Assembly: GCA_035536915.1 (NCBI GenBank)
Contig: DATLNE010000039.1
Location: 1 to 53,270, forward strand
Source: Acidimicrobiales bacterium
GTDB lineage: Bacteria; Actinomycetota; Acidimicrobiia; Acidimicrobiales; JAHWLA01
Length of the DNA: 53,270 nucleotides
Direction of reading: 5' to 3'
The position numbers and the translations under genes are program-made. Below are positions 3-39,811 of this stretch, in pieces; within the stretch, counting starts at the first letter, position 1; the number at the start of each line of letters is the position of its first letter. The notes under the pieces are model-generated. The model had not been told where the DNA came from, made no database searches, and was given only the letters and a program-made list of their open reading frames with translations.

Positions 3-1013
3 CCGCCCTTCTGGGCCTTCAAGCGCTTCAGCTTCGCAAAGCTGACCGGCCAGTACGACCACGTGATCGGCCTCATGGCCGCCATGGCCCGGCTCAACCT
101 GCTGGCCATGATCGGCATCGAGGACGCGGTGATGTCGGAGACGAACGTCATCGGCGACACCGAGGCGGCGAAGTACCGCAAGGGCCGCAACGCAGTGAAC
201 TACTTCGCCCCCGGCACGCAGGTGACGAAGATGAACGACCGGGTGCCGTTCGAGTCGTTCACCCAACTCGACCGCCTGGAGCGCCAGTTGCGCATCGTGG
301 CGGGCTACCCCGTGACCGACGACGCCCAGCACCCCGGCGGCGGCTGGGCCACCGGCCGTGGCCTGCAGGAGTTGACCTCGGCCATCGACGAGGAAGTGCG
401 CGAGTACCACACGATCCTCGCCACCGGCCTCATGCAGCTCGACGCGCTACGCCTGGAGTGGGACGAGACCTACTACGGCAACGTCGACAAGACCATGGAG
501 GGAGCGTACGGCGGCGCCGCCTTCGTCGAGACCTACACACCGTCGAAGCACATCAAGGGGCATCGCCGCACCCGGCGGGTCTACGGCGCCATGGCCGGCT
601 GGGACGACGCCACCAAGATCGTCGGCGGGCTCCAGTTGATGCAGGGCGGCATCATCGACGACGACACGTTCCGTGAGAACCTCGACGGCCTCGGCAACCT
701 GGAGAAGATCAAGGAGCGCATCCTTGCGTCCAAGGCCGAGGGCGTCCTGTTCGGCTCGCTCATGGCCATGGCGGAGCAGGGCGACCCCGCGGCCATGGCG
801 ATCGCTGTCGAGTTCCTCCCGGCGGGCAAGCTGCGCACGAAGATCGAGGGGGTGCTTGCCGGCCTGCAGGAGCAGCAGGCCGCGGCCGAGCAGCAGGCAG
901 CCCCGCCCGAGGTGATGACCGGCCAGCCGCCGCCCGACGTGGCCACCGTGCTGAGCCGGCTGACCGCCGGGGGCGCAGCGACAGGCGGCGTCCAGACGGT
1001 CGGGAGGATCTGA
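3..1013 (+). CDS. Phage portal protein, C-terminal part (gene starts before the window)
   Basis: The reading frame is open from the first bases of the window, so the gene is cut by the left edge and about 336 residues remain. A portal forms the dodecameric ring at one capsid vertex through which DNA enters and leaves. The visible part has the alpha-helical crown-like end typical of actinophage portals: a segment running DGLGNLEKIKERI then a KAEGVLFGSLMA helix, followed by a Pro/Gln/Ala-rich tail. The ring-forming clip and wing would lie in the first third and upstream. It overlaps the next gene by TGATG, indicating translational coupling. The assignment rests on pattern resemblance and position ahead of the scaffold and capsid genes. 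Confidence 0.72.
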   Translation, partial: PPFWAFKRFSFAKLTGQYDHVIGLMAAMARLNLLAMIGIEDAVMSETNVIGDTEAAKYRKGRNAVNYFAPGTQVTKMNDRVPFESFTQLDRLERQLRIVAGYPVTDDAQHPGGGWATGRGLQELTSAIDEEVREYHTILATGLMQLDALRLEWDETYYGNVDKTMEGAYGGAAFVETYTPSKHIKGHRRTRRVYGAMAGWDDATKIVGGLQLMQGGIIDDDTFRENLDGLGNLEKIKERILASKAEGVLFGSLMAMAEQGDPAAMAIAVEFLPAGKLRTKIEGVLAGLQEQQAAAEQQAAPPEVMTGQPPPDVATVLSRLTAGGAATGGVQTVGRI

Positions 1014-1213
1014 TGGAGCACTGGTACCTCCTGGCCGAGGACCGCTTCCGCGAGGCCCTCGTGCGCGCGTCGACGGGCGAGGACATCGACCTGCTGTTGG
1101 TCCAGCTATGGAGTGAGTCTCACCCCTGCACGGAGAACCACGGCGAGGACTGCGACGGGTGCGACCTTGAGGGGGGCATCGCCACCTTCAGCTTGCCGGT
1201 GGAGGCGATCTGA
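1013..1213 (+). CDS. Small phage protein, 66 aa, unknown
   Basis: A short acidic protein coupled by TGATG overlaps to the portal gene before it and to the next gene after it. It has a helical N-terminal half (MEHWYLLAEDRFREALVRAS) and then a Cys-rich stretch with CTENHGEDCDGCD, in which three Cys and one His could bind a metal. I do not recognise a family. Its place directly behind the portal suggests a small morphogenesis factor, but this is inference from position only. Confidence 0.6.
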   Translation: MEHWYLLAEDRFREALVRASTGEDIDLLLVQLWSESHPCTENHGEDCDGCDLEGGIATFSLPVEAI

Positions 1214-1632
1214 TGGCCCGCGGCAAGGGCCGGGGCGGCTCCCGCACACCGTCGAGCCCGGCCGCCGTGTCCGGCCCCGGCGCACTCTCCCGCCGGACCG
1301 ACAGCCAGCCCGTGCGTCCGGTCCCCGGCGGCACGTACGGCGACCGTAAGGCGACAGTCGAGCAGCAGCAGGCCGCGCCCATGGCCAGTGCGCCGACGCC
1401 GCAGGGCGCGCCTCCGCAGGCTGGCCCCGCAGGCGTCCCGATCGACCCCCGCTCGATCGACCCGTTCGGCCCGACGGCTCGGCCGAACGAGCCTCTCACC
1501 ACCGGTGCGGAGCCGCTCGCCGGCGGCACGCCGAACATCGACGTCGTCGAGCACCTTCGGGCGCTCTACGCCCGCTACCCGTCCGAGGACTTGCGCGAGG
1601 TTCTCGAAGACGCCGAGACGGGGGCGTTCTAG
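1213..1632 (+). CDS. Phage protein, 139 aa, disordered, unknown
   Basis: The protein starts with a basic Gly/Arg/Ser stretch (MARGKGRGGSRTPSS) and continues with Pro, Ala and Gln-rich sequence of low order; only the last 35 residues, with a helix around VVEHLRALYARYP, look folded. Such proteins occur next to portals in actinophages without known function. It is coupled by TGATG to the preceding gene. The gene after it is on the opposite strand, so the compact head operon is interrupted here. Confidence 0.6.
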   Translation: MARGKGRGGSRTPSSPAAVSGPGALSRRTDSQPVRPVPGGTYGDRKATVEQQQAAPMASAPTPQGAPPQAGPAGVPIDPRSIDPFGPTARPNEPLTTGAEPLAGGTPNIDVVEHLRALYARYPSEDLREVLEDAETGAF

Positions 1633-2023: not shown

Positions 2024-5000
2024 GTGAGCGCCCGCTTCTTCAACGCGGACGAGGACGCTGCGTTCGAGCGCATGAACGCCGAGTTGGCGCGCATGCGGAC
2101 CCAGCGCGCCACGGCGAACGTGCAGACGGTGTCGAATCTGGCGTCGATCCGCCGGATCGCCCCGTGGATGCCTCCTGGCACCACGTACGCATTGGCCGCT
2201 GGCGGGCACGACGGTGCGTCGCCTGTCACGCAGGTCGCGGCGCAAGCTGCTGCCAAGCGCAAGGTCAAGCGCGGGCTCGGCTGGCATTCGATAGGCGACG
2301 TGGTGACGGCAACGGCCGACGCCGTGAGCGACGCCGTGAAGCCCGTCGTGCGCTCCGGCCTCACCGCCCTCTCTGCCCCGCTGGAAGAGGCGCAGGGTCT
2401 CTTCCGGGAGGGCGTCCAGATGGTCCGCGAGGAGGGCTTCGTCGGCGCGTTCGTGGAGCACGCGAAGCAGGGGGGCGCGGTCAACATGCTGGCCGACAAC
2501 ATCGTGCGCGGCCAGCACTCGACCGCAGGCCAGTCCGTGCGAAAGGTGCTACAGGGCGAGGCCGTTGACCTCGGCTCCGGGTTCATGCCGGGCGGGCAGG
2601 CCGTGCAAGACCAGGCCGCCTACGCCCGGACGTTCGGGACCACAGGCGGCAAGGCGATCACCCCCGGTCGCTTCGCTGCCAGCCTGGTGGTCGAGCCGGG
2701 GACGACGCCCTTCAATGTGCTCTCGGGCCTGACGGATGCGGCCGTGGCCATCTACGCCGACCCGGGCGGGCGGGCGCTCGATGGGCTTGGCGCCGCGGCG
2801 AAGGCCAACAAGCTGTTCGATCCCCCTTCGGTCGGCCTGGTCAACGGCAACCGCACCACGGTGTTGTCGGAGCGGGCGGAGCAGTGGCTTGCCGGTGACG
2901 GTTCCAAGGTCGTCGACTACCTGGCGACAGAGACGAACCTGAACCGTATGCGTAGCACGGTGAAGGGCAAGCTGCCCGTGGCGCTCCTGCGCGACCTGAC
3001 CGACGCCCGCACCACCGACGAGGTGGTCGACGTCCTCGCACCGGCACTCGGCGTCGCCGTGCGCTCGACGGACGAGTTCGCCATGGGCAAGATCGCCCGC
3101 TTCGCCCCCGACTTCCGCAAGCGCCTCGACGGCGTGCGAATGCTCCAGCAGATGCCGGGCGAGGCGGTCGACGTGAACGACCTCGACGACGTGGTCGAGC
3201 GGATGGACCGCTTCATGCGCAACGCCAAGCTCCCCGGTGAGGTGGTCGACCAGCGTATCGACGAGCTGGCCCGCACAGAGAACCGGGTCGATCTCTTCCG
3301 CGTGGTGACAGATGTACTCACAGACACGATGACGAAGGTGGGCGACTACACCGACGCCAACACGGCGCGGCGGATGACCGGCATCGTCCGCAACTACAAC
3401 GACGAGATGGCGAAGTACTTCGTCGACGAACTCGCCAACAACGTCCCCATCTTCGGCGTCGGGATCGACGGCGTGTCGGCGTCCCTGCCGTCGCCCCACC
3501 TGGCCGTTGAGTACCTGAACCGCTCGCTCCCGCTGCCCGACGCCCGTGCGATCCGCCGGATGACGTCGCGCTACGGCCGCCTGCTCAACAAGCCGGCGCT
3601 CGACCTGCCCGTCGCCTTCCTCGACTTCGCCCTGCAGGACGTGTGGAAGCCGATGGTGCTGATCCGAGGCGCCTGGACCGTCCGGGTCATCGGTGAGGAG
3701 CAGGTGCGCATGGCCGCGTCGGGGATGGACTCGCTGTTCCGTCACCCGTTGTCCTACATCGCTTGGGCTACGGGCCGTCGCGGTGGCGCGGGCCTGACCG
3801 GCGAGGGCTTCGCCGACGCCTCGGCTGCAGCCGCCGATGCCGACGAGTTCGCCAAGGCCATGAGCCGCAACGGAGGCGGGTGGCGTGACCGTGTCGTCCA
3901 CATGGGCAAGCGGAAGGTGTACCGGGAGGAGGACGAGTTCCCCGCCGCATGGGGCGATGAGTTGCTCCAGCTTCGCACCGACCCGGTGGCTTCCCGGGTG
4001 GCCGGCGGCTGGGCCGACGGTGACGCCGTACCGGGCCGAACTGTCGTCGACATTATCGACGAGGAAGTCGAGGAACTGGCCGAAATCCCCGGCTCATCGT
4101 TCTACCACGGCACCTCGCGCCGGTTCCTAGGCGACGCCATTGATCCCGACGAATTCGGGACGGGCTCAGGCGCCGACAATCTTTTCGGTCCCGGCTTTTA
4201 CCTGACTGATAACCCCGACGTGGCGCGCAGTTACACGAAAAAAGGTAAGGGCAACGATCCTCGGGTTTACGGCGTCGAGTGGGCTGGAGACACCCCACCC
4301 CGCCTCATCGACATCGAGCGGCCGCTCCCCGAGGACGTACGGGGAGCGTTCCGCCGCCACTACGAGGGGTTCTTGGCAGACTCCGACTTTTATGTCGACA
4401 CTGAGGAGGCCATCCGAAGGGCTCTCGACGACCCGTCCGCAACGGGTGCCCGCCTTTACCAACTCTTTCGTCGCGCCTACGGCGAGGCGGGCATGGTCAA
4501 GTACGAGGTGGATGAGTCGTTGCACAGCCTCCACGATGAACTGGTCGACCTCGGCTACGACGGCTTCACGTATAAGGGCGGCGTACGGACTAAGTCCCAA
4601 AAGCACAACCCAGTCGTGATCTTTCGGCCGGCGAAACTCCGGGTCGCCCACAGCACCGAACCGGTCACGCGTCGAACGGTGCAATCGACTACAGAGCGGT
4701 TCGAGCCCGGCCTCACCGGCAACCACGTCGAGGACGCCAAGCGCTGGTTCTGGGAGGGCCCCGGCCAGAAGTTCCGCGACGAGATGGCAGGCGCCGAGGG
4801 CCGCGAGATGCTCAACGTGAGGCACCGACCGGACGGCACCTCGTACCGCGACGACGGCAAGGTGCTGAGCGCCGACGACTACATCGACAGCGTGTTCCAC
4901 CGGCTGCAGGTGAAGACCGGCGGCGACCAGCGCCTGACGGATGCCGTCGCCACTGGCGTGCTCGACGGGGAACCCATCCGCGAAGGCATCAGGGCGTCGA

Positions 5001-7159
5001 AGGCGCTCCGTGCCAAGCTCGACGCATTGCGGGCCGAGGGCGTCGGTCCCGAGGGCGTCAAGGGCGACATCGCGCTCGTCGGACGTGGAAGCGCCGGGGG
5101 CAAGGTGGCGTCGGCGCTCGACCACGCCGTCGACACGATGTTCTCGGTGCTGATGTCGAAGCCCACGAACAAGCTGTCGCGCTCGCCGTCGTTCCGTCAG
5201 TTCTATTGGCAGCGGGTCGAGGAGTTGCTGCCGGGCATGGACGCTGCCGCTCAGGCTGCTGCCCGCCAGGCGGCCGAGAAGGCGGGATTGGGCCGTTCGA
5301 CGCTGAAGCGCTTCGACGAGCAGATCGGAAGAAGCGACGCCGCCCCCGAGGGTTTCGTGCGGCTCTATCGAGGCGAGGCGGAGCACCTCACCCCCGAGCA
5401 GCTCGCGGCGCTTCCTGCCGACGCCCGTGAAAACGTCGGGCGCTGGTTCACTCATCGTCGCGACATCGCAGAGGAGTACGCGAAGGGCGGTGACATCCTC
5501 GCTGTCGATGTGCCCAGCGCTGTGTTCGACGAGAAGTTCACAGCGCTGCCCGGCGACCGTGGGTTCGCTGTGCTCCCTGCGGAATGGGCCGGCGCCGCTT
5601 CGTCGCGAAGCGGGCTCACGCTCGACGACGTCGACACGCTCGCCAAGGGGTTCGGGCTCGACAAGACCAAGGAGCTGCTCTACGACCTGAGCGACCGCAG
5701 CCAGTTCTTCGACATCACCCGCCACATCTTCCCCTTCGGTGAGGCGTGGAAAGAGGTCGGCACCCGGTGGGCCAAGATCGGCGTCGAGAACCCGAAGGTG
5801 ATCCGGCGTGGCCAGCAGCTCGTGCAAGGCGCCCGCGGCTCGGGGTTCTTCTACACCGACGAGACGACCGGCGAGGAAATGTTTGCCTACCCCGGCAGCC
5901 AGTTCGTCACCGAGAAGATGATCGGGGTTCCTGTGCCGATGGCGGGGCGCGTACAGGGTCTCAACGTCTTCGGCGGCACCGTGCTGCCCGGCTTCGGCCT
6001 GGCGGTCACCGTGCCCGCCGGCGCGTTCCTGCCCGACAAGCCCGAGTGGGACGCGGTGCGCAAGATCGTCATGCCGTTCGGTGAACTCGACACCGAGGGC
6101 GGCCTGATCGAGTCGGTACTGCCCGCGTGGCTGCAGAAGTTCCGCCAGACCGGCAAGACGCCCTTCGGTCGCCAGGACGACCGCATGTGGAACAACACCG
6201 TGTGGGACGTGGCCCGCTACCTCAAGTCGACCGGCGACTACCCCACCGACTCGATCGAGGGCCAGGAGCGGCTCCTGAAGGACGCCAAGGACAAGGCCAA
6301 GCTCGTCTACGCCCTCCGGGGCGCTGCGCAGTTCGTGGCGCCCTCGGCGCCGTCGCCCCGGTTTCTCGCCTTCGACAAGGACGGGAACCTCCTCATGCAG
6401 CAGCGCATGATCGAGGAGTACCAGAAGCTCGACGAGGCGGAGAAGGCGGGCGGCACGCCCGCCCTGGAAGCGTTCCTCGAGCGCTTCGGCGAGGACGCGC
6501 TGCTCGTCGTGCAGGGCAAGACCGAGGGCCCGTCGGCACCCACGAAAGAAGTGGCCGACTGGCAGCGTGAACACCCCGAGTTGGCCCGCCGTTTCCCCGA
6601 CGTCTACGGGTTCTTCGCCCCGGGCGGCGGCGAGTTCGACATCGACGCCTACACACGTCAGATCGCCTCCGGTGAGCGCAAGGCGATCAGCCCCGAGGAC
6701 GCGCTCAAGCGCGTGAACGCTCGCATCGCCGGGATGGTCTACCGGAACGCCAAGGACAAGCTGGGCGATCGGCGCGACCCCGGCGCCACCGAGTGGCTGC
6801 GCACGATCCGCGAGGCGCTCATGGAGGAGTACCCCGGCTACGACCCGGGCTCGTACGACCCGGGGCGCACCGACCGCAACATCCGCCAGGTCGAGGCCGC
6901 CCTGGAGCACGAGGCCGTCCGGGCGACCGACGCAGGCGAGGGCGCCCGCCTGTACCTGCTTGCGAGGGAGCGGGCCATCGAGTCCGCGAAGGCGTCCGGG
7001 CTGACCACGTTCGGCTCGGCCAAGAAGGCTCGCGGCATCCGACAGTGGCTGCGTGCGGTCGCCACCTCCATCGCGGAGGAGCATCCCGGCTTCGCTCCGC
7101 TGTACGAGCGGGTCTTCGAGCAGGAGATGGTCGACGACCGAGAGGAGGCTGCTGCCTGA
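2024..7159 (+). CDS. Giant internal virion protein with ADP-ribosyltransferase-like modules (polyvalent-type)
   Basis: This 1711-residue protein lies between portal and scaffold, where short-tailed phages encode proteins ejected with the DNA. The start is GTG with no clear Shine-Dalgarno site. Residues about 691-876 look like an ADP-ribosyltransferase module of the kind found in phage and plasmid polyvalent proteins: SSFYHGTSRRF, then GPGFYLTDNPDVARSY, then LGYDGFTYKG and NPVVIFRPAKL. Residues about 1106-1189 carry a weaker second match: GFVRLYRGE, GRWFTHRRDIAEEYA, ILAVDVP, FAVLPAEW. The remaining helical and beta sequence is unassigned; residues 1200-1420 hold a phage-like region with RHIFPFGEAWKE. 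No membrane segments are obvious. The first module is less GC-rich than its flanks, suggesting later insertion. By analogy with T4 Alt, these modules could modify host proteins on entry; that is inference. The gene overlaps the next by TGATG. Confidence 0.65.
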   Translation: MSARFFNADEDAAFERMNAELARMRTQRATANVQTVSNLASIRRIAPWMPPGTTYALAAGGHDGASPVTQVAAQAAAKRKVKRGLGWHSIGDVVTATADAVSDAVKPVVRSGLTALSAPLEEAQGLFREGVQMVREEGFVGAFVEHAKQGGAVNMLADNIVRGQHSTAGQSVRKVLQGEAVDLGSGFMPGGQAVQDQAAYARTFGTTGGKAITPGRFAASLVVEPGTTPFNVLSGLTDAAVAIYADPGGRALDGLGAAAKANKLFDPPSVGLVNGNRTTVLSERAEQWLAGDGSKVVDYLATETNLNRMRSTVKGKLPVALLRDLTDARTTDEVVDVLAPALGVAVRSTDEFAMGKIARFAPDFRKRLDGVRMLQQMPGEAVDVNDLDDVVERMDRFMRNAKLPGEVVDQRIDELARTENRVDLFRVVTDVLTDTMTKVGDYTDANTARRMTGIVRNYNDEMAKYFVDELANNVPIFGVGIDGVSASLPSPHLAVEYLNRSLPLPDARAIRRMTSRYGRLLNKPALDLPVAFLDFALQDVWKPMVLIRGAWTVRVIGEEQVRMAASGMDSLFRHPLSYIAWATGRRGGAGLTGEGFADASAAAADADEFAKAMSRNGGGWRDRVVHMGKRKVYREEDEFPAAWGDELLQLRTDPVASRVAGGWADGDAVPGRTVVDIIDEEVEELAEIPGSSFYHGTSRRFLGDAIDPDEFGTGSGADNLFGPGFYLTDNPDVARSYTKKGKGNDPRVYGVEWAGDTPPRLIDIERPLPEDVRGAFRRHYEGFLADSDFYVDTEEAIRRALDDPSATGARLYQLFRRAYGEAGMVKYEVDESLHSLHDELVDLGYDGFTYKGGVRTKSQKHNPVVIFRPAKLRVAHSTEPVTRRTVQSTTERFEPGLTGNHVEDAKRWFWEGPGQKFRDEMAGAEGREMLNVRHRPDGTSYRDDGKVLSADDYIDSVFHRLQVKTGGDQRLTDAVATGVLDGEPIREGIRASKALRAKLDALRAEGVGPEGVKGDIALVGRGSAGGKVASALDHAVDTMFSVLMSKPTNKLSRSPSFRQFYWQRVEELLPGMDAAAQAAARQAAEKAGLGRSTLKRFDEQIGRSDAAPEGFVRLYRGEAEHLTPEQLAALPADARENVGRWFTHRRDIAEEYAKGGDILAVDVPSAVFDEKFTALPGDRGFAVLPAEWAGAASSRSGLTLDDVDTLAKGFGLDKTKELLYDLSDRSQFFDITRHIFPFGEAWKEVGTRWAKIGVENPKVIRRGQQLVQGARGSGFFYTDETTGEEMFAYPGSQFVTEKMIGVPVPMAGRVQGLNVFGGTVLPGFGLAVTVPAGAFLPDKPEWDAVRKIVMPFGELDTEGGLIESVLPAWLQKFRQTGKTPFGRQDDRMWNNTVWDVARYLKSTGDYPTDSIEGQERLLKDAKDKAKLVYALRGAAQFVAPSAPSPRFLAFDKDGNLLMQQRMIEEYQKLDEAEKAGGTPALEAFLERFGEDALLVVQGKTEGPSAPTKEVADWQREHPELARRFPDVYGFFAPGGGEFDIDAYTRQIASGERKAISPEDALKRVNARIAGMVYRNAKDKLGDRRDPGATEWLRTIREALMEEYPGYDPGSYDPGRTDRNIRQVEAALEHEAVRATDAGEGARLYLLARERAIESAKASGLTTFGSAKKARGIRQWLRAVATSIAEEHPGFAPLYERVFEQEMVDDREEAAA

Positions 7160-7956
7160 TGCCAGGCCTGGAAGAACTCATCATGGCGGGCCCGCCGCCC
7201 GCTGCTGGGCCGCGGTTGCCGATCGGCGTCCCCCAGGACTACGTTGCCGTCCGAGAGCACACAGACCCGGTGACGTCGATGGACCCGTCGATCACCACGA
7301 CGACAGCGATCCCGCCGTCGTACTACACGGGCGACGAGTGGCTGCCGGTGAACCTGCCGCCGGAAGACCTCGCCCGGCTACAGCGGCGCATGGTCGACGC
7401 GGGCCTGATCCCCAAGGGGGCCAAGTTCCAACTCGGCACCTACGACGAGGTGACCCGTGCGGCCTTCACGGAGCTGCTCGCCTATGCCAACGCTTCGGGC
7501 CTCGGTAGTCGCAACACCATCCCGCTCGACGCCTTGGAGCAGTACGCCGCCGGCAAGCAGCAGTTCCCCGAGGACACGAAGCCCCTGCCGCCCCTCCGGC
7601 TCCCGGGTGCCGACGAGATTGCCCAGGCGGTGAAGTCGACGGTGCGCTCGATGCTGGGCGGGCGAGACCCCGACGCCGAGGAGATGGCCGAACTCACAGG
7701 GCTGCTCGCCGGCTTCAGCCGCGAGAGTGCCGAGCAGGAGCGTTCGCTTCTCGTGGCCCAGCGTGATGCGGCCGAGGGTGAGGCGACCTCCGACGCTGTC
7801 GTGGTCGAAGACCCGGTGGCCCGGTTCAAGGAAGAAATGGAGCAGCGTTACCGGCCGGAGATTGAGCGTCTCGACAACATCGAGGAGGTCGAGGTCGGCC
7901 GCAACAACCTCCTTAAGAGCATCGTGGGGATGGACCAACTGATGGGCGCGCGCTGA
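7159..7956 (+). CDS. Putative internal virion protein with peptidoglycan-binding-like region
   Basis: I place the start at the ATG overlapping the previous stop (TGATG), giving 265 residues; the frame is open further upstream but that part lies inside the preceding gene. Residues about 70-120 (LPPEDLARLQRRMVDAGLI, then GTYDEVTRAAFTELL) follow the helical pattern of peptidoglycan-binding repeats: a helix with LQ, an exit Gly, then a D..T..A helix. The rest is charged and helical. Next to an M23 peptidase and an ejection-type giant protein, a role in wall binding or penetration during infection is plausible but unproven. Confidence 0.55.
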   Translation: MPGLEELIMAGPPPAAGPRLPIGVPQDYVAVREHTDPVTSMDPSITTTTAIPPSYYTGDEWLPVNLPPEDLARLQRRMVDAGLIPKGAKFQLGTYDEVTRAAFTELLAYANASGLGSRNTIPLDALEQYAAGKQQFPEDTKPLPPLRLPGADEIAQAVKSTVRSMLGGRDPDAEEMAELTGLLAGFSRESAEQERSLLVAQRDAAEGEATSDAVVVEDPVARFKEEMEQRYRPEIERLDNIEEVEVGRNNLLKSIVGMDQLMGAR

Positions 7957-8705
7957 TGGCCGACAACTCCATGAAGGAACTCCTGCAGGGGGTGCTCGTC
8001 GACATGTCGTCCCGCATCGCCGGGAGCGGCCCCACCGGGATGATCCCCGACTTGATGTCGATGCCGGGCGAGGAGCCCGAGGAGGAAGCGGAGCACGACC
8101 ACGACCACGAGGGCGAGGAGGACACGGCTACCACCGCCGCTCCTGCCTCGGGCGACGGCAGCACGATCATCAACCCCGTGCCCGGGGGCACATTCGTCGA
8201 CACCATGGGGGCCGACCGCGACGGCGGGAAGCGCAAACACAAGGGGACCGACATCTTCGGCAAGAAGGGGTCACCTGCGGTTGCGCCGATCGGCGGCACA
8301 GTGGTCAAAGCAGGCAGTTCTGGAAAGGGCGGCCTCCGGGTGTGGATCAAGGGGACCGACGGCCGGTATCACTACCTCGCCCACCTTGATCGCATCGACG
8401 TGAGACAAGGTCAGACGGTCACGCAGGGTCAGCAGATTGGGACGGTCGGAAACACCGGCAACGCCAAGACCACCCCGCCCCACGTCCACTACTCGATCAA
8501 CTCGCAGTCCGAGGCAGAGGACGCCATCGGCAACCCGGCCTTGGAGCTCAAGGGCCAGAAGTCGCCGCCCGCCAAGCCCGCTCAGTCCTCGCCCAGGACC
8601 AGGAGCGCCGCCCGTGCGGCGCGCGCCGCCGTCGGGAGTACGCAGGCGTTGGGTGAGCCGGCGCCGACCACGGACAACGGGATGACAACGAGAAGGGCCT
8701 TCTGA
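7956..8705 (+). CDS. M23 (LytM-type) metallopeptidase, likely virion-associated
   Basis: A 249-residue protein with a complete M23 core: HKGTD gives zinc ligands H95 and D99, YLAHLD supplies H143, and PHVHYS supplies H176 and H178. M23 enzymes cut peptide crosslinks in peptidoglycan. The N-terminal 90 residues are acidic with a His/Asp/Glu run (EHDHDHEGEE) and look like a flexible arm; the C-terminal 50 residues are Ala/Arg-rich. There is no signal peptide, and the gene sits inside the head operon far from the lysis cassette, so a particle-borne enzyme opening the wall for DNA entry fits better than an endolysin. TGATG overlaps on both sides. Confidence 0.85.
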   Translation: MADNSMKELLQGVLVDMSSRIAGSGPTGMIPDLMSMPGEEPEEEAEHDHDHEGEEDTATTAAPASGDGSTIINPVPGGTFVDTMGADRDGGKRKHKGTDIFGKKGSPAVAPIGGTVVKAGSSGKGGLRVWIKGTDGRYHYLAHLDRIDVRQGQTVTQGQQIGTVGNTGNAKTTPPHVHYSINSQSEAEDAIGNPALELKGQKSPPAKPAQSSPRTRSAARAARAAVGSTQALGEPAPTTDNGMTTRRAF

Positions 8706-9838
8706 TGGCCGATCTTCGCAACGTGCCCGGCGGCGCCGAACTGCTGCTGATCGGTGACCCGTCGAAGGGCCAGAACTACTGGTACCACCTCTCCTACACG
8801 ATCCCCGGGACCAACACACGGATGGTGTGGGCGTTCCCCGCGGGGACCGACACCGTGAAGGCGATCACCGGCGAGACCGCCCCCGCTGCTCGCCAGGTCA
8901 CGTGGGACACATTCCGCGGCGAGGGGATGCTGCACTTCGGCACAGTCAACGAGCTGGTGAACCGCAGCGAGCACCCCTTCGATGCGTTCGTGGCCGACTT
9001 CGAGAAGGAGGCGCAGATCCGGCCGTGGCTGCGCGACGCCGAGGTGCTCGCCCTCACGGCCCAGGCGATCCTCGAAGGCCGCACCGTCACGCAAGCAGAG
9101 CTGCAGACCACCAAGTGGTGGACCTCGCGCAACGAAGCGCAGCGGCAGTGGGCGGCGCTGGTGGCCGGCGACCCTGCGCAGGCCCGACGCATCCAGGAGG
9201 ACAACCGGATCAAGGTCGCGGAGATGCTGCGCAAGAGCGGCCTCCAAGGCGTGCCGGAGTCGGCTGTGCACCTCATGGCCGACAGGCTCACCGTGGGCGA
9301 CTGGAGCGAAGAGTACGTGGGCGAGCAGGCCCGTCGCCTCGTGAACCCGACGCTGGGCGCCGTCGACCCCGCGCTCACCGGCGCCATCGGCAAGGCGCCG
9401 GTGCGCACCGGCGTCGACTTCATCGAAGACGTCCGGGCCGAGGCGCGGCGTTGGCTCGGCCCGGTCCACGGTAGGTGGGACGACGCGCTGGTACAGAAGT
9501 GGGCCGGTCGGCTGGCCACCGAGCCCGGCGCCCAGGACATGCTCACGGAGGAGCTGCGGCGTCAGCGCCTCGCTCTGTTCCCCGAGTACGAGGACGAGCG
9601 GCTCGACTACGAGTCGATCGCCCAGCCGTGGCGCGGCGTGGTGTCGACGGTGTGGGGGCAGGTGGCCGACGAGTCCGACGCGATGTTCGAGCGCATCGTC
9701 CGCATGAACGACCGCACCACGGCGGAGGGGCTCCTGCGCAGCGAGGGGCTCAAGCGTGGTGTCAAGAAGGTGACCGCTGACGGGCTGGAGGCGCTCAGCG
9801 CCGCCTTCGCCGGCGGCGGCGTGAGGAAGGCGACCTGA
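8705..9838 (+). CDS. Putative internal virion protein, 377 aa, unknown
   Basis: A charged, mostly helical protein with a short beta-like N-terminal part (GAELLLIGDPSKGQNYWYHL). Several helices carry Trp (TKWWTSRNEAQRQWAALVAG; RRWLGPVHGRWDDALVQKW). No signal peptide, membrane segment or catalytic motif is seen. It overlaps both neighbours by TGATG and belongs to the same co-translated block as the giant ART protein and the M23 peptidase, so I infer a structural or ejected role. No family recognised. Confidence 0.6.
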   Translation: MADLRNVPGGAELLLIGDPSKGQNYWYHLSYTIPGTNTRMVWAFPAGTDTVKAITGETAPAARQVTWDTFRGEGMLHFGTVNELVNRSEHPFDAFVADFEKEAQIRPWLRDAEVLALTAQAILEGRTVTQAELQTTKWWTSRNEAQRQWAALVAGDPAQARRIQEDNRIKVAEMLRKSGLQGVPESAVHLMADRLTVGDWSEEYVGEQARRLVNPTLGAVDPALTGAIGKAPVRTGVDFIEDVRAEARRWLGPVHGRWDDALVQKWAGRLATEPGAQDMLTEELRRQRLALFPEYEDERLDYESIAQPWRGVVSTVWGQVADESDAMFERIVRMNDRTTAEGLLRSEGLKRGVKKVTADGLEALSAAFAGGGVRKAT

Positions 9839-10815
9839 TGGACATCACATCCCCCGGCTCCTCTAAGACGTGGACAATTCCCGACGAGGCGCTCCAGCAG
9901 TGGCACCCTGGCCAGCCCCCGGCGTCGACTCCGCCGACGACGCCCCCCGTCACCCCGCCGCCTCCGGCCACGCCGGCGCCGGGCTCCGACTTTTACTCGC
10001 AGGTGCGCCTGCTGTTCCCCTACCTGCCCGAGCCTTTGGTGCAGGTCTTCGCAGACGCATGGACCACCACGGGCTCGCCCGAGATGGCCTTGCACACGAT
10101 GCGCCAGAACCGGGCGGTGTACGACGTGTATTTCGCCGGCAACCGGCGCGAGGACGGCACGCTGCGACTCAGCGAGTTCGAGTACCTCTCCAACGTCGAG
10201 GGCTACAAGCGGCGCCTCGCAGAGTTCGGCGTGCCGCCCGACTTGGTGCTGACGCCCGAGCGGCAGCGTGCACTCATCGAGGGCGAGAAGTCGCCGGCGG
10301 AGTTCGAAGCGGAGTTGAGCGCCCTGTACGTCGGCGTCATGTCCGCGGGCGAGCACGTGCGGGCCTGGTACGCCGACAACTACGGCGCCGTCGAGATCTC
10401 CGATGCCGCCCTGTTTGCCTCCGTCATCGACAGGGCGGCATCGCCCATGGAGTTCGAGCGTCGCATCCGCGCTTCGCAGGTCGGCGGCGAGGCTTCCCGC
10501 TACGGCTTCGGTGCGCAGGTCGACCTCGAAGAGGCCGAGCGGCTGACCGCCTTCGGCCTCGAGGGCGAGGGCGCTCGGCGTCTGTTCTCGCGGGCGGCGC
10601 AAGAGCTGCCCGCGCTCAACGACCTGGTGCGCCGGTTCAACGACCCCGACGACGAGTTGACGGTCGACGAGTTCGCAGACGCCTTGGTCGTGCAGGACGC
10701 CGACCAGATCCGCACGATAGGGCGGCTTCTCTCCCGCTCACGGGCGCAGTTCGGCAGCGACGAGTTGGTCGAGCGCGACCGCTCGGGCAGGCTCACGGGC
10801 CTTCGTCCGACGTAA
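9838..10815 (+). CDS. Putative internal virion protein, 325 aa, unknown
   Basis: The first 18 residues are followed by a Pro/Thr-rich linker (about residues 20-45), and the rest is helical and acidic. The segment LFPYLPEPLVQVFADAWTTT begins the folded part. Two later stretches (VRAWYADNYGAVEISDAAL; LVRRFNDPDDELTVDEFAD) suggest paired helix units. It overlaps the preceding gene by TGATG and ends the pre-capsid block, after which there is a 237-base gap. No known family; role inferred from position only. Confidence 0.6.
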   Translation: MDITSPGSSKTWTIPDEALQQWHPGQPPASTPPTTPPVTPPPPATPAPGSDFYSQVRLLFPYLPEPLVQVFADAWTTTGSPEMALHTMRQNRAVYDVYFAGNRREDGTLRLSEFEYLSNVEGYKRRLAEFGVPPDLVLTPERQRALIEGEKSPAEFEAELSALYVGVMSAGEHVRAWYADNYGAVEISDAALFASVIDRAASPMEFERRIRASQVGGEASRYGFGAQVDLEEAERLTAFGLEGEGARRLFSRAAQELPALNDLVRRFNDPDDELTVDEFADALVVQDADQIRTIGRLLSRSRAQFGSDELVERDRSGRLTGLRPT

Positions 10816-10819
10816 ATGC

Positions 10820-10848
10820 TTGACGGCGCGCGCGCCGAATGGCATCGT
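10820..10848 (+). promoter_or_regulatory. Candidate promoter ahead of scaffold and capsid genes
   Basis: The longest gap in the head cluster (10816-11052) begins with TTGACG at 10820-10825 and, 17 bases later, CATCGT at 10843-10848. The spacer starts with an alternating GC run of ten bases that is self-complementary. A dedicated promoter would allow extra capsid and scaffold synthesis. The -35 match is good and the -10 match poor. Confidence 0.3.
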
Positions 10849-11052
10849 TGTGACTCAGCAGGTGGCCCGCTCCCTGAGACGAGTGGGAAGGTCGATCGGT
10901 CATCACCCGAACCGGTCGTAGAACCAGGGTGTGCGGTAGCAGCGGCACGACGTCGGGGCAGCAGCGCGACGTGTCGTTCCCGTTCTCTTCTGCGCCGGCC
11001 GCGATCCAACGCCCGAGTTCGCGTATCGCCGTGTGGGGCGTAGAGGAGAGAG

Positions 11053-11574
11053 ATGCCCGAGCCCGAAGTCGACGACAGCAAGACCGCCCAGCAGCAGCCC
11101 ACCGAGGACTCCAAGGACTTCGCGAAGCTGCGCAACAAGAGCGAGGCCCAGGCCGCTGAGATCACGGCGCTCCGCAGCACCAACGCCAAGCTGCTGGCCG
11201 CCGCTGCAGGTTTCGACACCTCCACCAAGCTCGCATCCATCGCCCTCGACCAGTTCGCCGCCGAGCGCAAGGTCGACGAGTTCACCCCCGAGGCGTTCAA
11301 GGCGTTCGCCGAGGAGATCGGCCTTCCCGCCACGGTCGCACCGGCCGGCACGGAAGGCGACGGCACGCAGGCGCCGGCAGGGACCGACGCGGCGACCGCG
11401 CTCGGTGCCGTGCAGGCCCAGGCCGACGCCATCAAGGCAGGTACCGGGCAGGCCGCGCCTGCCGCTCTCCCCGAGCAGATCGCAGCCGCCGAGCAGGCGG
11501 GCGACTACCGGAAATCCATGGAGCTGAAGGACACACTCACCCAGCAGCAGATGGCGCCTCGGGCACCCGCCTGA
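11053..11574 (+). CDS. Capsid scaffolding protein
   Basis: A 173-residue acidic, Ala/Gln/Glu-rich protein directly upstream of the major capsid gene, the standard position of scaffold. Residues about 20-52 form a predicted coiled coil (FAKLRNKSEAQAAEITALRS), followed by a helical middle and a low-complexity Gly/Ala/Thr linker. Scaffolds guide capsid shell assembly and then leave. A strong GAGGAGAGAG ribosome site precedes the ATG. Sequence conservation is low in this family, so composition and position carry the call. Confidence 0.75.
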   Translation: MPEPEVDDSKTAQQQPTEDSKDFAKLRNKSEAQAAEITALRSTNAKLLAAAAGFDTSTKLASIALDQFAAERKVDEFTPEAFKAFAEEIGLPATVAPAGTEGDGTQAPAGTDAATALGAVQAQADAIKAGTGQAAPAALPEQIAAAEQAGDYRKSMELKDTLTQQQMAPRAPA

Positions 11575-11603
11575 GCCGCGACCACCGAGAAAGGTAACGA
11601 ACG

Positions 11604-12530
11604 ATGGGCGCAGTCACAGGCCAGGGCACGACATTCAACCTCCCCAACTACGTGGGCGAGCTGTTCTTCGTCACGCCCAAGGAGACGCCGTTCCTCAGCA
11701 TGATCGGCGGGCTCACCGGCGGCATCCCCGCTACGGCGACCGAGATCCAGTGGCAGTCCATCGACAACGCCGCGGCCGCACAGCCGGCCATCCTCGAAGG
11801 CGCCGATCCGGTCTACAACGCCCGGACGCGCTCCCCGATCAGCAACATTCTGCAGATCTTCCAGTACGGCGTGGAGCTGAGCTACACGAAGCAGGGCGCC
11901 GTCGGCCAGATCTCGGGGGCGTCGATCCTCGGCACCCAGCCGGTGCAGAACGAGCGGGTCACCCAGCGCCGGCTCAAGCTGGAGCAGGCCGCCCGGGACA
12001 TGGACTACTCGTTCCTGCAGGGCGCCTACCAGAAGCCGGTCGACAACACGACCGCCCGCAAGACCCGCGGCATGAAGAACGCCGTCACCACGAACGTGGT
12101 GGCCGCCGCCGGCGCCCGTCTGAACCGCGACCATTTCCAGTCGCTGTTCAAGTCGATGGCCGACAGCGGGGCGATCTTCTCCGAGCTCATCCTGTTCGCC
12201 AACGCCTTCAGCCGCCAGCGCATCAGCGACATCTACGCCTACGCGCCGGAGTCCCGTAACGTGGGCGGCTTCTCGATCAATCAGATCGAGACGGACTTCG
12301 GGATGGTCGGCGTGTGCTTCGAGCGGCACCAGCCGGTCGACGAGGTGCTCGCCGCCGAGATGTCGGTCATCAAGCCCCGCTTCCTCACCATCCCGGAGAA
12401 GGGCCACATGTTCTTCGAGCCCCTCGCCAAGACGGGCGCCGCCGACAAGGAGCAGCTCTACGGCGAGGCCGGGTTGGAGTACGGGCCCGAGCAGTGGCAC
12501 GGCAAGATCACCGGCCTGGCGACGGCGTAA
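11604..12530 (+). CDS. Major capsid protein, SU10/DUF5309-like
   Basis: A 308-residue protein with the recognisable start of the SU10-like capsid family: a short N-terminus, then FFVTPKETPFLSMIGG, then an ATEIQWQSIDN strand and an ILEGADP turn. The rest alternates helix and beta as in HK97-fold capsid proteins (YGVELSYTKQGAVGQ; long helix RRLKLEQAARDMDYSFLQG). The family includes podovirus capsids, which fits the missing tail genes. Scaffold precedes it with a gap of 29 bases carrying a GAAAGG ribosome site. Confidence 0.8.
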   Translation: MGAVTGQGTTFNLPNYVGELFFVTPKETPFLSMIGGLTGGIPATATEIQWQSIDNAAAAQPAILEGADPVYNARTRSPISNILQIFQYGVELSYTKQGAVGQISGASILGTQPVQNERVTQRRLKLEQAARDMDYSFLQGAYQKPVDNTTARKTRGMKNAVTTNVVAAAGARLNRDHFQSLFKSMADSGAIFSELILFANAFSRQRISDIYAYAPESRNVGGFSINQIETDFGMVGVCFERHQPVDEVLAAEMSVIKPRFLTIPEKGHMFFEPLAKTGAADKEQLYGEAGLEYGPEQWHGKITGLATA

Positions 12531-16248: not shown

Positions 16249-18215
16249 TGCCGCTCCCCAACACCTCGACCATGGCCCGGCCCCGGGCCTACGGCTACGG
16301 CTGCCGCCTGGGCGACACCTTCTACCGCCTCGCCGTCGGCCCCGACCGGCCGTTGGAGATCACATCGGCCCCGCTGCAGGCGCCGCAGGTGTCGATGGCC
16401 GAGACCCCCGAGGATCTCCGCAACGACTTCGGCTCCTACTTCAGCCGCACGAGGTTCTCCGGCGGCGAGGGCCTCGCCTTCGCCCACACCCGCGAGCCGG
16501 CGCCCGAGGACTCGCTGCGCTTCTTCGACTCGGCGCACGTCGACATCCGCCCGGGCCGCCCCGGTGAGCTCGAATCATTCACCCTCCTGCCCGAGACCCG
16601 CCTGGTCGACGCCAGCGCAGCGTCGAACCTCGCCCTGGCGTGGGACGGCACCGCGCAGTACATGGCCAGCGGCACCACCGTCCGGCGCTGCACCGACCCC
16701 GCGGCGGCGGCGGGCGGCGCCTACAACGACGACAGTCCGCACGTCGGCGAGGCGGCCACCACCGTCGAGGACCTGGTTGCCGTCGGCACCACCGTGTACG
16801 CCGCCCTGGGCGCCAACGGCATCCACCGGCGCATCGGGGGCGCCTGGGCCCATTGGAGCGACCTGGCGGCCTCGAGGGTGTGGGCGGCCAAGGCGACGTC
16901 GACCGGCGGCTTCGTACTGGCGGCCAAGGACAACGTGCTGTACGAGGCCAAGCCCGGCGTCGGCTCGATCGCCTTGGTGACGCTCGGGCCGGGCGAGACG
17001 TGGGTCGACCTCGTGGACGCGGGCGCCGCCATCCTCGCCTCGGCCTCGAACGGCTACGTGTACGCCCTCGGGCTCAACGAGGGCCTGACGGCCTTGGAGC
17101 TCAAGGGCCAGACGAAGGTGAGCGACTCGGCCCGTGTGCAGGCCCTCGGCTACGGCGGTGGGTTCGTCTTCTACTCGTTGCGCGAGCCCACCGGCACCGG
17201 CGCCGTGGGCTCGTTCTGGCGGGCGCAGCTCGACCCCGACAGCTTCACCCTCGTCAACGCCTCGGTGCGCAAGCAGTGGGACCACCAGGACAGCGACGAC
17301 CACTCGCCCGACCACGCTCCGCACCGGATCGTCACGGCGCGTGACGCGGTGTACCTCGGTGTGCTTGGGCACGGGGCGGCGGCCGGGCTCTGGCGCTACG
17401 ACCTCGCCACGGCGGGCATGTCACGCGACCTCGACACGCACAGCTCGGCCGGTGTCGTCACCGACGTGCAGGCGCTGTTCGACCGGCTGTTCGTCGCCGT
17501 CGCCGGGGCCGGGCTCTACCGGGAGGAGACGACCTACGAGGTCGAGGGCCACCTGATCGGCCCGTTGGGCGACCTCTTCACCGCGTCGGAGAAGTCCTGG
17601 GTGGGCGCCTACCTCGACGCCGAGGCCGTGGTCGACGACACCCGCATCGAGTTCTACGCCACCACCGACCCCGCTGCCCTGCTCGACGCCGACTCGCCTG
17701 CGTGGCGCCGCATCGTCAACCTGACGACCGGCACCGTGCCCGACGAGCAGAGCATGCGGGGCGTCACCGGCCGCTACGTGGCCGGCATGGTGAAGCTCTA
17801 CGCCAGCCCCACCCGCACGGCCCGCCCCGCGGCCCGGGGCTTCGTGTTCCGGGCCTACCCGGGAGCGGGCGACACGATCATCCGCATGCCCATCTCGTGC
17901 GGCGACCAGGTGGAGATGCCGGGGCGCCGGCCCATTCGAGCCAAGGGTCTCGGCCGACGGGTCCACGCCTCGCTCAAGGGCATCGAGGGGTCCAACCTCG
18001 ACCTGTACCTGTTGGAGCCCGCAGAGGAGCTTTACCGCGGCACGGTGATCGAGGTGGGGGCGCCGGTCACCGTGCTGCCCCAGCGTGGCTCGCCCCTCGT
18101 CGTCTGCTGGGTGACCTTCCGCGGCGGCATCGTCAGTCTCAGCGGCGGCTCGCAGTCGCCCGGGGCCTTCAACGTCGGCCTGCTGGCCGAGATGTTCCTT
18201 GGAGGGCACGAGTGA
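16248..18215 (+). CDS. Beta-rich tail protein, possible nozzle or propeller
   Basis: A 655-residue protein starting at TAATG overlap with the adaptor. From about residue 110 it consists of repeated short strands with Gly-rich turns (NLALAWDGTAQYMASGTTVR; TVYAALGANGIHRRI; GFVLAAKDNVLYEAK; AAILASASNGYVYALGL; AVYLGVLGHGAAAGLWRYD; RLFVAVAGAGLYREET), which suggests a beta-propeller. The C-terminal 200 residues are beta-sandwich-like. Large propeller-bearing nozzle proteins form the tail tip in several short-tailed phages; I infer that role. It overlaps the next gene by GTGA. Confidence 0.5.
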   Translation: MPLPNTSTMARPRAYGYGCRLGDTFYRLAVGPDRPLEITSAPLQAPQVSMAETPEDLRNDFGSYFSRTRFSGGEGLAFAHTREPAPEDSLRFFDSAHVDIRPGRPGELESFTLLPETRLVDASAASNLALAWDGTAQYMASGTTVRRCTDPAAAAGGAYNDDSPHVGEAATTVEDLVAVGTTVYAALGANGIHRRIGGAWAHWSDLAASRVWAAKATSTGGFVLAAKDNVLYEAKPGVGSIALVTLGPGETWVDLVDAGAAILASASNGYVYALGLNEGLTALELKGQTKVSDSARVQALGYGGGFVFYSLREPTGTGAVGSFWRAQLDPDSFTLVNASVRKQWDHQDSDDHSPDHAPHRIVTARDAVYLGVLGHGAAAGLWRYDLATAGMSRDLDTHSSAGVVTDVQALFDRLFVAVAGAGLYREETTYEVEGHLIGPLGDLFTASEKSWVGAYLDAEAVVDDTRIEFYATTDPAALLDADSPAWRRIVNLTTGTVPDEQSMRGVTGRYVAGMVKLYASPTRTARPAARGFVFRAYPGAGDTIIRMPISCGDQVEMPGRRPIRAKGLGRRVHASLKGIEGSNLDLYLLEPAEELYRGTVIEVGAPVTVLPQRGSPLVVCWVTFRGGIVSLSGGSQSPGAFNVGLLAEMFLGGHE

Positions 18216-19582
18216 CCGCCATCGAGACGCACCTGCTCGCCGCCTTCGAGACGACCCTGACGGGCAACGTCGGTCCGAACGACATCGTGTTCCCCGTCGT
18301 GACCACGGGCGGTGGCACATCGCCCATGTACCTCGTGTTCGAGCCGACCAACGACGCCCGACGTGAGATCGTCCTGTGCGACGGCGCGTTCGACGCTGCG
18401 ACCTTCCGGTCGACGTCGCTGGCCAAGCGCTACCTGACGGGCTCGGCCGCAGGCTCGGGCCTCACGCACGCCTCGGGGACCGTCGTGCGCTGTTGCCCGG
18501 TCCCGCAGCACTTCGAGGACATCTACGACCTCATCACAGCGGCCGACCTACGGGGCCTGGTCGACGCCAAGGGCGACCTCCTGGTCGGCACGGCCGCCGA
18601 CACCGTGGGCCGCCTGCCCGCCCCGGCCGACGACTCTGTGCTCATGGCCGACTCGTCTCTGCCCTCGGGCTGGAAGGGCGCCCCGCTGGCCGTCGTCGAC
18701 ACAGTGGCCGACGTCGCCGCCACCGAAAGCGCCGGCGTGACCGACACCCTCGCCCGCGGCGACCACGTTCACCGGGGCATCCCGACCACGCTGGTCGACG
18801 CCAAGGGCGACCTCCTGGTCGGCACGGCCGCCGACACCGTGGGCCGCCTGCCCGCCCCGGCCGACGACTCTGTGCTCATGGCCGACTCCACAGCCGCTAC
18901 CGGGTGGAAGGCGGCTGCGCCGGCGGACGCCTCGACAATCGCGGATGTCACCACTGGCGCCGAGTCCGCCGGCGTGACCGACACCCTCGCCCGCGGCGAC
19001 CACGTTCACCACGTCGACCCTGCGACAGTCGGCATGACCGGCGAGATGCGGATGTGGCCGGGTGCCGCTGCTCCCGCGGGCTGGCACTTCTGCGACGGCA
19101 GCCAGCGCTCCGACGGCGCTCCCGGGCAGGCCGGCGCCGCGCTGTACGCAGTCATCGGCACGACCTACGGCGGGACCGGCCCGGCCGACTTCCTCCTGCC
19201 GAACCTCAAGGGCCGCTTCCCGGTCATGCCCGACGCTGCGCAGGCCGAGTTCAACGTGCTGGGTGAAACGGGGGGCGCTAAGGCGGTCGCGCTGACCACG
19301 GCGCAACTGCCCAGTCACACCCACGTGCAGGACCCGCACGACCACAACCTCACAGACCCGGGCCACACACACGACGTGTTCCTCGCGGAGAGCGGCAACT
19401 TCGTGGACGGGGCCACGAACGCCGTGCCCAGCAACACCAACGGCGGGACAACCGACAGCGGCTCGTCGGTCACCGGCATCAACATCGTCCCCGCTACGGC
19501 GACCAACCAGCCCACGGGCAGTGGCGAGACGCACAACAACCTCCCGCCCTACTTGGCCGTCAACTTCATCATCAAGCTCTAG
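18212..19582 (+). CDS. Tail fibre protein with collar-type C-terminal domain
   Basis: A 456-residue protein starting at GTG (GTGA overlap). The N-terminal 110 residues form a beta attachment domain. Two tandem units follow (LVDAKGDLLVGTAADTVGRL, then ESAGVTDTLARGDHVH), a common shaft motif in actinophage fibres. After residue 270, GEMRMWPGAAAPAGWHFCDG, then TYGGTGPADFLLPNLKGRFP, match the phage tail collar domain. The His-rich end (LPSHTHVQDPHDHN, DPGHTHD, GETHNNLPPYLAVNFIIKL) closely follows receptor-binding tips of T4 gp12 type, where His residues coordinate metal. It likely determines host range. Confidence 0.8.
   Translation: MTAIETHLLAAFETTLTGNVGPNDIVFPVVTTGGGTSPMYLVFEPTNDARREIVLCDGAFDAATFRSTSLAKRYLTGSAAGSGLTHASGTVVRCCPVPQHFEDIYDLITAADLRGLVDAKGDLLVGTAADTVGRLPAPADDSVLMADSSLPSGWKGAPLAVVDTVADVAATESAGVTDTLARGDHVHRGIPTTLVDAKGDLLVGTAADTVGRLPAPADDSVLMADSTAATGWKAAAPADASTIADVTTGAESAGVTDTLARGDHVHHVDPATVGMTGEMRMWPGAAAPAGWHFCDGSQRSDGAPGQAGAALYAVIGTTYGGTGPADFLLPNLKGRFPVMPDAAQAEFNVLGETGGAKAVALTTAQLPSHTHVQDPHDHNLTDPGHTHDVFLAESGNFVDGATNAVPSNTNGGTTDSGSSVTGINIVPATATNQPTGSGETHNNLPPYLAVNFIIKL
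18557..19010 (+). repeat. Tandem shaft repeat in the tail-fibre gene
   Basis: Bases 18557-18654 recur without change at 18791-18888, and 18731-18773 recurs at 18968-19010. The periods, 234 and 237 bases, differ by one codon. Two nearly identical shaft modules at DNA level suggest recent duplication by recombination and provide a means of changing fibre length. Confidence 0.9.
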
Positions 19583-20651: not shown

Positions 20652-20987
20652 GTGAGGGTTCGCATCGTGGAGGACACCAAGGCCCTGGCCCACCTGCTGA
20701 GGCTCGGGCTAGAGGACGAAGGCCACGACGTGGTGACCTCCACGCGCGAGTTCGAGCGCCTGCTGACGCCCGCGCCGTGGGAGGACGTCGATGCGGCCCT
20801 CATCGACCTGTACCTGCCCGGCATCAAGGGCACCGACATCCTGCGGTACCTGCTCGACCACCACCCCGAGGTGAAGCGGGTCGCCATGACCGCCTCGCTG
20901 TCCATGGCAGATGACGCGGTGGGCCTGGCCCGGGCCGTCCTCGTCAAGCCGTTCCGTACGGCCGATCTTGTGGAGGCGCTGCGATGA
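20652..20987 (+). CDS. Stand-alone response-regulator receiver domain
   Basis: A 111-residue protein, GTG start, with a strong GGGGGAGG site. It is a complete CheY-like domain: acidic pair E7/D8 in RIVEDTK, phospho-acceptor D52 in ALIDLYLPG, T80 in AMTAS, K99 in LVKPF. No output domain follows. In bacteria such domains take phosphate from a histidine kinase; no kinase gene is present in this part of the phage. It sits in the lysis cassette and overlaps the next gene by four bases. It could intercept host two-component signalling or act as a protein-protein switch in lysis; both are inference. Confidence 0.85.
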   Translation: MRVRIVEDTKALAHLLRLGLEDEGHDVVTSTREFERLLTPAPWEDVDAALIDLYLPGIKGTDILRYLLDHHPEVKRVAMTASLSMADDAVGLARAVLVKPFRTADLVEALR

Positions 20988-39397: not shown

Positions 39398-39811
39398 TCA
39401 GATCGCCGCCACGATGGCGCGCAGCCCGTCGAGGCGGTCGCCTTCGCTGATTAGCGCCTCCATCCGGGCGAAGTCCTCGGCGAGGTCTATAGCGCCGAGG
39501 AGGAGCCGTCGGACCTCTTGGTCTGGTTCGCCCTCTGGCGCGCCCTCGGGAATCGCCACCTGCACCATGAGGGTCCGTTCCTTTCGGGAGAACCGCCCGC
39601 TTCGGATGCCCTCGAACTCCGGTGTGAAGTCTCTTCCCGCTGGGACGTGGAATACAACATTCACGTTAAAAGGCGATGAATATGAGTCGCGGACCTCAGC
39701 GACTCGCCTCATGGCGTTGTCGATCGCCGTCGTCCAGGCCTTGTTGGACACGACGCCGGACACCGCTCCTATAGACAAGGCCTCCATGGACACACCATCA
39801 ATGCCGGTCAT
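39398..39811 (-). CDS. Immunity protein for the RHS toxin
   Basis: A 137-residue protein starting at an ATG that overlaps the RHS stop (ATGA), so translation is coupled as expected for cognate immunity. It reads MTGIDGVSMEALSIGAVSGV, then a strand-rich middle (FNVNVVFHVPAGRDFTPEF, TLMVQVAIPEGAPEGEPD) and a long helix (VRRLLLGAIDLAEDFARMEA). No known family. It would block the GIY-YIG-like tip. Confidence 0.7.
   Translation of the reverse strand: MTGIDGVSMEALSIGAVSGVVSNKAWTTAIDNAMRRVAEVRDSYSSPFNVNVVFHVPAGRDFTPEFEGIRSGRFSRKERTLMVQVAIPEGAPEGEPDQEVRRLLLGAIDLAEDFARMEALISEGDRLDGLRAIVAAI

Follow-up and report, generated by a model that had tools for sequence, protein, structure and literature searches.

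A candidate ejection protein with an inserted ADP-ribosyltransferase domain in a podovirus-like prophage of an Acidimicrobiales bacterium

Ejection proteins leave the phage head through the portal channel and form a conduit across the cell envelope, as reviewed in PMC8954989. It is already known that ADP-ribosyltransferases (ARTs) occur in ejected phage proteins, and a fold resembling that of ARTs is present in a pre-ejectosome of known structure. Phage ARTs were predicted in survey work to be packaged in many cases (PMC9503650); section 13 of that survey puts their frequency among siphoviruses and podoviruses at only about 3%. Fusions of an ART to a giant structural-type protein are read as packaged in the surveys that treat them (PMC5512222, PMC9503650). 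Injected phage enzymes act before phage gene expression and can therefore decide the outcome of an encounter with host defences. In this study, we describe a prophage in which the ART is a discrete and compositionally distinct insert in a giant protein, and insert-free relatives serve as natural controls. The locus thereby makes two questions testable: whether effector cargo enters the cell on the ejection proteins of podoviruses, and whether these proteins have dedicated slots for such cargo.

The window, that is, the whole stretch of DNA analysed here, is a contig of 53,270 bases, one of 54 in the 3.2-Mb genome of an Acidimicrobiales bacterium. About the first 21.5 kb hold a tailed-phage late-gene block. 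The C-terminal part of the portal gene is followed by small genes, the giant gene, a gene for a 265-aa protein, an M23 peptidase gene, two further genes and the capsid gene; tail genes with a collar-domain fibre and then an amidase gene come after the capsid gene. The remainder of the contig looks like host genes (transporter, RHS-repeat protein, GlgE). The main features of the phage block are as follows.

3..1013, + strand: C-terminal part of the portal protein, truncated at the start of the contig (63-1013 is the longest frame that begins with GTG)
1213..1632, + strand: small conserved protein, homologue of Manuel gp08 (phrog_8200, E 2.5e-7; Manuel gp08, E 3.9e-6)
2024..7159, + strand: giant 1711-aa protein, candidate ejection or internal virion protein (open frame, coding bias, full-length viral homologues, phrog_10618)
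7159..7956, + strand: 265-aa conserved protein directly 3' of the giant, with homologues at the matching position in relatives
7956..8705, + strand: M23 peptidase, candidate wall-degrading virion protein (PF01551, E 1.1e-25)
8705..9838, + strand: homologue of Manuel gp13, which is annotated as a glycosylase (E 9.5e-6); kept in relatives
9838..10815, + strand: conserved protein of the same block (phrog_8424, E 9.7e-19); some relatives' homologues match Manuel gp14
11604..12530, + strand: major capsid protein, MCP (phrog_1328, E 5.5e-70; 28 phage records)
17702..19582, + strand: tail fibre-like protein with a tail collar domain (PF07484, E 4e-17)

The contig begins within the portal gene, and the left half of the phage lies off the contig. 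Positions 3-1007 align with residues 252-582 of the 584-aa portal of a relative (E 6.1e-70), and the portal of Manuel matches the same fragment at E 2.5e-15. The sequence-only reading had placed the 1711-residue protein between portal and scaffold. The portal side of this placement was borne out and the MCP lies downstream, whereas the scaffold candidate, a 173-aa protein upstream of the MCP gene, is assigned by position only, and four larger genes separate the giant from the capsid and scaffold region. Elsewhere in the genome, neither a single terminase query nor an alignment of six terminase rows gave a match, a result that is not proof of absence. With the truncation at the contig edge and this negative search, the block may be incomplete. 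The same two observations would fit a defective remnant or an assembly artefact, in which a broken prophage holds fused modules that are not expressed as one protein. We consider this extremely unlikely, because no stop interrupts the 1711 codons of the giant, coding bias is seen in core and inserts alike, and the neighbouring structural genes are open.

Some other parts of the contig deserve mention. The tail fibre-like gene (17702-19582, +) has a GC3 of 0.81, below the 0.86-0.96 of the remaining phage genes for which it was determined; a host-range gene that is exchanged would be expected to show such a difference. At its right end (20652-20987, +), the phage block encodes a response-regulator receiver domain that stands alone and has 111 aa. 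The RHS-repeat protein in the host part has 3547 aa (39808-50451, -) and a pretoxin-HINT domain near its C-terminus.

The gene order is the same as in Manuel and Stella, which belong to the Streptomyces Beephvirinae, and the portal, gp08 and gp13 are homologous. Abafar, a Manuelvirus of the Beephvirinae, is described as having podovirus morphology with a tail of 16 nm (PMC11536984). Judged by this synteny and by kinship to Abafar, this phage very likely has a short tail, and its giant lies at the place of the ejection proteins. By MCP, the nearest cultured phages include some with siphovirus-type genomes that carry tape-measure genes. A siphovirus assignment by way of the MCP was nevertheless set aside because no tape-measure-sized gene follows the capsid gene in the phage block of the contig and the portal block matches the Beephvirinae. 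It is also conceivable that the giant is another tail or head component, tape-measure-like or structural, which holds the ART on or in the particle for another purpose. The MCP kinship to siphovirus-type genomes would agree with this, as would a core for which no similarity to a solved ejection protein was found. However, the gene order is that of Beephvirinae podoviruses with a homologous portal, and the M23 peptidase and the homologue of the gp13 'glycosylase' that lie alongside fit ejection proteins. We therefore regard another role in the particle as very unlikely.

The 1711-residue frame is a real gene. It begins with GTG at position 2024 and stays open on the + strand to 7159, its position-specific GC gives a GC3 of 0.88, and it is the best-scoring frame at the locus. 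The coding bias and this score identify a 972-aa antisense frame over the giant as a shadow. Homologues that cover the full length of the protein are present in viral contigs. They were reached from the MCP, which led to a syntenic viral contig (L008/L020), and alignments then led to 30 IMG/VR loci. These loci gave 31 giant frames, two of them from one contig, which were reduced by hand to 21 representatives by dropping 10 near-duplicates. One of these frames, at 4210-8934 of locus L034, seems to be interrupted after the conserved GFF motif by an intein-like Hint start (a C and a Hint-type stretch) that runs from about residue 1490 to the contig end; Pfam Hint matches it only at E 0.065-0.083, and the contig ends inside it.

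The giant was found in 3 of 396 genomes of the phylum, its own included, and the two others hold further giants; among the 99 nearer genomes only its own has it. A scan of genome contigs with the giant alignment gave 134 pattern matches and zero relatives. A tblastn search of phage records with the whole giant gave nothing at 1e-5. The nearest cultured relatives are the giants of the Streptomyces Beephvirinae, which are weakly matched in tblastn (E down to 7e-4 from one relative). The family of these giants, phrog_10618, shows a remote match to the window protein, with E 7.2e-6 across some 90 residues; against the same family, Manuel gp10 reaches 2411 bits. Searches of Pfam, NCBIfam and PHROG revealed no MPTase, polymerase or other named polyvalent domain in the giant. 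Sequence searches of the PDB returned no credible relative, whether the query was the window protein or the profile of the ART or of the giant, and the core has no sequence match to A-4L ORF27 or to any PDB chain. A model of residues 535-1290 had a pLDDT of 52.6 and a best structural match of Z 4.0, a confidence too low to mean anything.

Three features were delimited within the giant gene.

4028..4723, + strand: insert 1, residues 669-900, absent in most relatives (GC3 0.746)
4091..4651, + strand: ART-PolyVal domain, residues 690-876, with H695, Y726 and D846 (Pfam, own profile, fold)
5333..5626, + strand: insert 2, residues 1104-1201, a true insertion that is weakly ART-like (RLYRGE ... GRWFTHRRDIAEEYAKGG)

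Residues 690-876 (module 1) are an ART of the ART-PolyVal (Tox-ART-HYD2) kind, as judged by sequence profiles and a predicted fold, and the domain is presumably active. Pfam ART-PolyVal (PF18760) matches residues 693-873 at E 9.2e-7 with 30.1 bits, which is 1.1 bits short of its curated cut-off of 31.2 bits. A viral ART profile built without the row of the window protein finds module 1 at residues 693-881 with 59 bits (1.4e-18). When this profile was run against 37 sequences, duplicates included, the other giants, Manuel and Stella among them, all fell below the inclusion threshold, and apart from module 1 only ORF27 of Anabaena phage A-4L passed it (E 0.0012). In section 9 of PMC5512222, the Tox-ART-HYD2 clade is defined by H in strand 1, Y in strand 2 and D in strand 5. 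H695 and D846 are kept in 8/8 aligned sequences and Y726 in 7/8 (F in L097), and on our reading of the alignment D846 would be the published strand-5 D. An AF2 model of residues 670-907, made from 8 sequences, is of moderate confidence (pLDDT 63.3, pTM 0.62). Its best structural match in the PDB is 9k3a_B (Z 13.7 over 168 residues, rmsd 3.3), which is also the only PDB match below 0.001 in Foldseek; the next structural matches are mostly ART-fold enzymes at Z 5.5-8.7. In BFVD, the model has 26 matches at E <= 0.001, several of which are named ART-PolyVal. Hence the polyvalent-type ART that had been proposed at residues 691-876 held up in the profile searches, in the predicted fold and in its catalytic residues.

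The ART-alignment scan of the genome contigs gave 42 pattern matches and zero relatives. The nearest viral relative of module 1 that was found is in L060 (IMGVR_UViG_3300031555_001552), which shares the string YTKKGKGN with it. The protein in L060 is of the polyvalent type and has a tandem pair of ART-PolyVal-like domains.

The chain 9k3a_B is ORF27 of A-4L, a protein of 1717 aa, and belongs to a PDB entry titled 'Cyanophage A4 pre-ejectosome'. Residues 1423-1583 of ORF27 match the ART profile in a one-sequence test, and the protein aligns with module 1 at the YHGT, G.YF and D positions; by Pfam alone the stretch reaches only E 0.23. Together, the structural match of module 1 and the profile match of ORF27 indicate that the assembled pre-ejectosome of a podovirus is already known to contain an ART-like domain, at any rate at the level of the fold. 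The counterpart in A-4L is an ordered part of this assembly, and relatives of the window protein function without the inserted ART. Both observations would suit an inactive inserted ART whose role is to pack or dock within the core stack before ejection. Such a role is unlikely, in our judgement, since H695, Y726 and D846 are kept despite divergence to about 30% identity, and a filler with a purely structural role need not keep them. We therefore continue to treat module 1 as a probable enzyme.

On the evidence of alignments and base composition, both modules are insertions into a conserved giant. At site 1 (residues 653-908), the window protein has 256 residues and 19 of the 21 relatives have 18-50, the exceptions being L047 (141 residues) and L044 (422). 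At site 2 (residues 1062-1222), 161 residues in the window protein stand against 69-102 in 18 of the 21 relatives; L052, L056 and L034 have 205, 315 and 323. The flanks of both sites align well on either side, and the G211 giant lacks both inserts. The base composition also differs, with a GC3 of 0.746 in insert 1 and 0.776 in insert 2 against 0.89-0.93 in three parts of the core. Core windows of the same length, which overlap one another, never had a GC3 as low (0/716 for insert 1 and 0/1090 for insert 2). These alignments, the variety at the insertion sites and the GC3 values point to modules gained by a conserved protein, with different content at the same sites in different phages. L034 and L056 have paired helix-turn-helix domains at site 2 in place of module 2, and L044, L045 and L050 carry further extra material between positions 959 and 1032. 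The inserts may move between phages; among these giants, only the window protein carries a confirmed ART. The helix-turn-helix domains of L034 and L056 are themselves an instance of a virion-type giant with DNA-binding modules. The site 1 insert of L044 (giant frame 5227-12486) looks ART-like by eye (FHSSS ... ALYVST); since neither Pfam nor an hhalign comparison with the ART profile returned a match for it, we do not claim it as an ART.

The second module is less clear. The sequence-only reading had taken residues 1106-1189 for a weaker second ART. That it is an insertion was upheld; its assignment as an ART was not. HMMER scores were non-significant (E 0.11 with Pfam ART-PolyVal and E 0.32 with our own ART profile), R1113/R1116 and W1141 stand at the expected places of H and Y, and the H-Y-D residues are absent. 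In hhalign, the module resembles the part of the ART profile that comprises the second strand and helix (GRWFTHRRDIAEEYAKGG), over 22 residues only. It outscored 754/755 other 103-aa windows of giants and 300/300 shuffles, and the sole window above it overlaps the first row of the ART profile itself. The structural model over the module is of low confidence. Because of the residues at the H and Y places, the scores and this model, we did not file module 2 as an ART. Module 2 has no relative in viral contigs. It matches at E <= 0.1 in 43 of 396 genomes of the phylum, its own included; 29 of these, as loci L063-L091, were searched again and were chance-like where they aligned to the module. A match in a marine virus leaves out the RLYRG part, and the plasmid matches are one short stretch in nine Phaeobacter plasmids. 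As no relative was found in viral contigs and matches elsewhere are chance-like or partial, we leave the assignment open: module 2 may belong to an R-type ART clade or may be something else.

Taken together, the giant is probably a virion protein of the ejection type whose cargo slots are exchangeable, and the ART in one of these slots would act inside the host upon infection. Its position, its size and its company, namely the M23 peptidase and the gp13 'glycosylase' homologue, suggest an ejection protein. It adjoins portal and capsid genes and wall hydrolases in a phage that is short-tailed by kinship. This agrees with the ejection-protein position in a short-tailed phage that had been claimed for it, as do the Beephvirinae gene order, the homologues and the best structure match, which lies in a pre-ejectosome. 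Since the core matched neither A-4L ORF27 nor any PDB chain and its model was poor, the case for ejection is drawn from position and synteny. In the process that we propose, a conserved scaffold of roughly 1,400 residues would be produced with the late genes and placed near the portal inside the head. The giant would then exit through portal and tail, with the DNA or ahead of it, helped by the neighbouring wall-degrading proteins. Two positions of the scaffold appear to tolerate extra domains. Position 1 would hold an NAD+-using ADP-ribosyltransferase of the H-Y-D ART-PolyVal kind, and position 2 a second module, unrelated or very divergent. As infection starts, the ART would reach the envelope or the cytoplasm and, after entry, might modify a host macromolecule, favouring the phage or blocking a defence.

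Another reading is that the giant is a true virion component whose ART does its work in the cell that makes the phage, at a late stage of infection or during lysogeny, for instance to counter competing phages, rather than once it has been ejected. The gene sits in the late structural block of a prophage, and phage ARTs made in the cell exist, such as T4 ModA and ModB in PMC9503650. On the other hand, the ART is not free but forms part of a giant of structural type that occupies the ejection position, and the surveys cited above (PMC5512222, PMC9503650) take such fusions as packaged. Action in the producing cell thus seems quite unlikely to us, and delivery at infection is the reading we retain.

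A more far-reaching form of this reading can be offered only tentatively. A lineage of short-tailed phages may perhaps use its giant ejection protein as a carrier that offers two or three cargo slots at fixed places, with phages exchanging the host-acting domains that fill them. This cargo would comprise the H-Y-D ART, a second, new ART-like clade, the paired helix-turn-helix domains and others. If so, swaps of domains in one virion protein would drive the evolution of the arsenal that is delivered at time zero.

Among the described systems, T4 Alt is the functional model, as an ART that is packaged in the head and injected with the DNA (PMC5512222, PMC9503650). The parallel to Alt that had been drawn for the window protein stands as a functional analogy and fails as to clade. 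Alt is a separate protein of a T4-like phage and belongs to the R-S-E clade according to section 9 of PMC5512222, whereas module 1 lacks the R-S-E active site of Alt and VIP2 and has H-Y-D. Nearer in this respect are the polyvalent proteins with Tox-ART-HYD2 domains, including N4-like virion RNA polymerase fusions, in which PMC5512222 describes an H-Y-D ART within a large protein predicted to be injected. They differ from the window giant, which has one confirmed ART and, by the domain searches above, neither an MPTase or polymerase nor any other of the named polyvalent domains. The Beephvirinae giants (Manuel gp10 and Stella gp10; phrog_10618) have the same genome position and length class. 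No ART was found in gp10 of either phage, and the window giant has one. In a limited literature search, we did not meet a description of an optional ART slot and a second variable slot in a conserved Beephvirinae-like giant. A-4L ORF27 carries its ART near the C-terminus (residues 1419-1606), whereas that of the window protein lies mid-protein, and outside the ART the two have no detectable similarity. Like the window protein, however, ORF27 is a podovirus giant with an ART-like domain and the pattern YHGT ... G.YF ... D.
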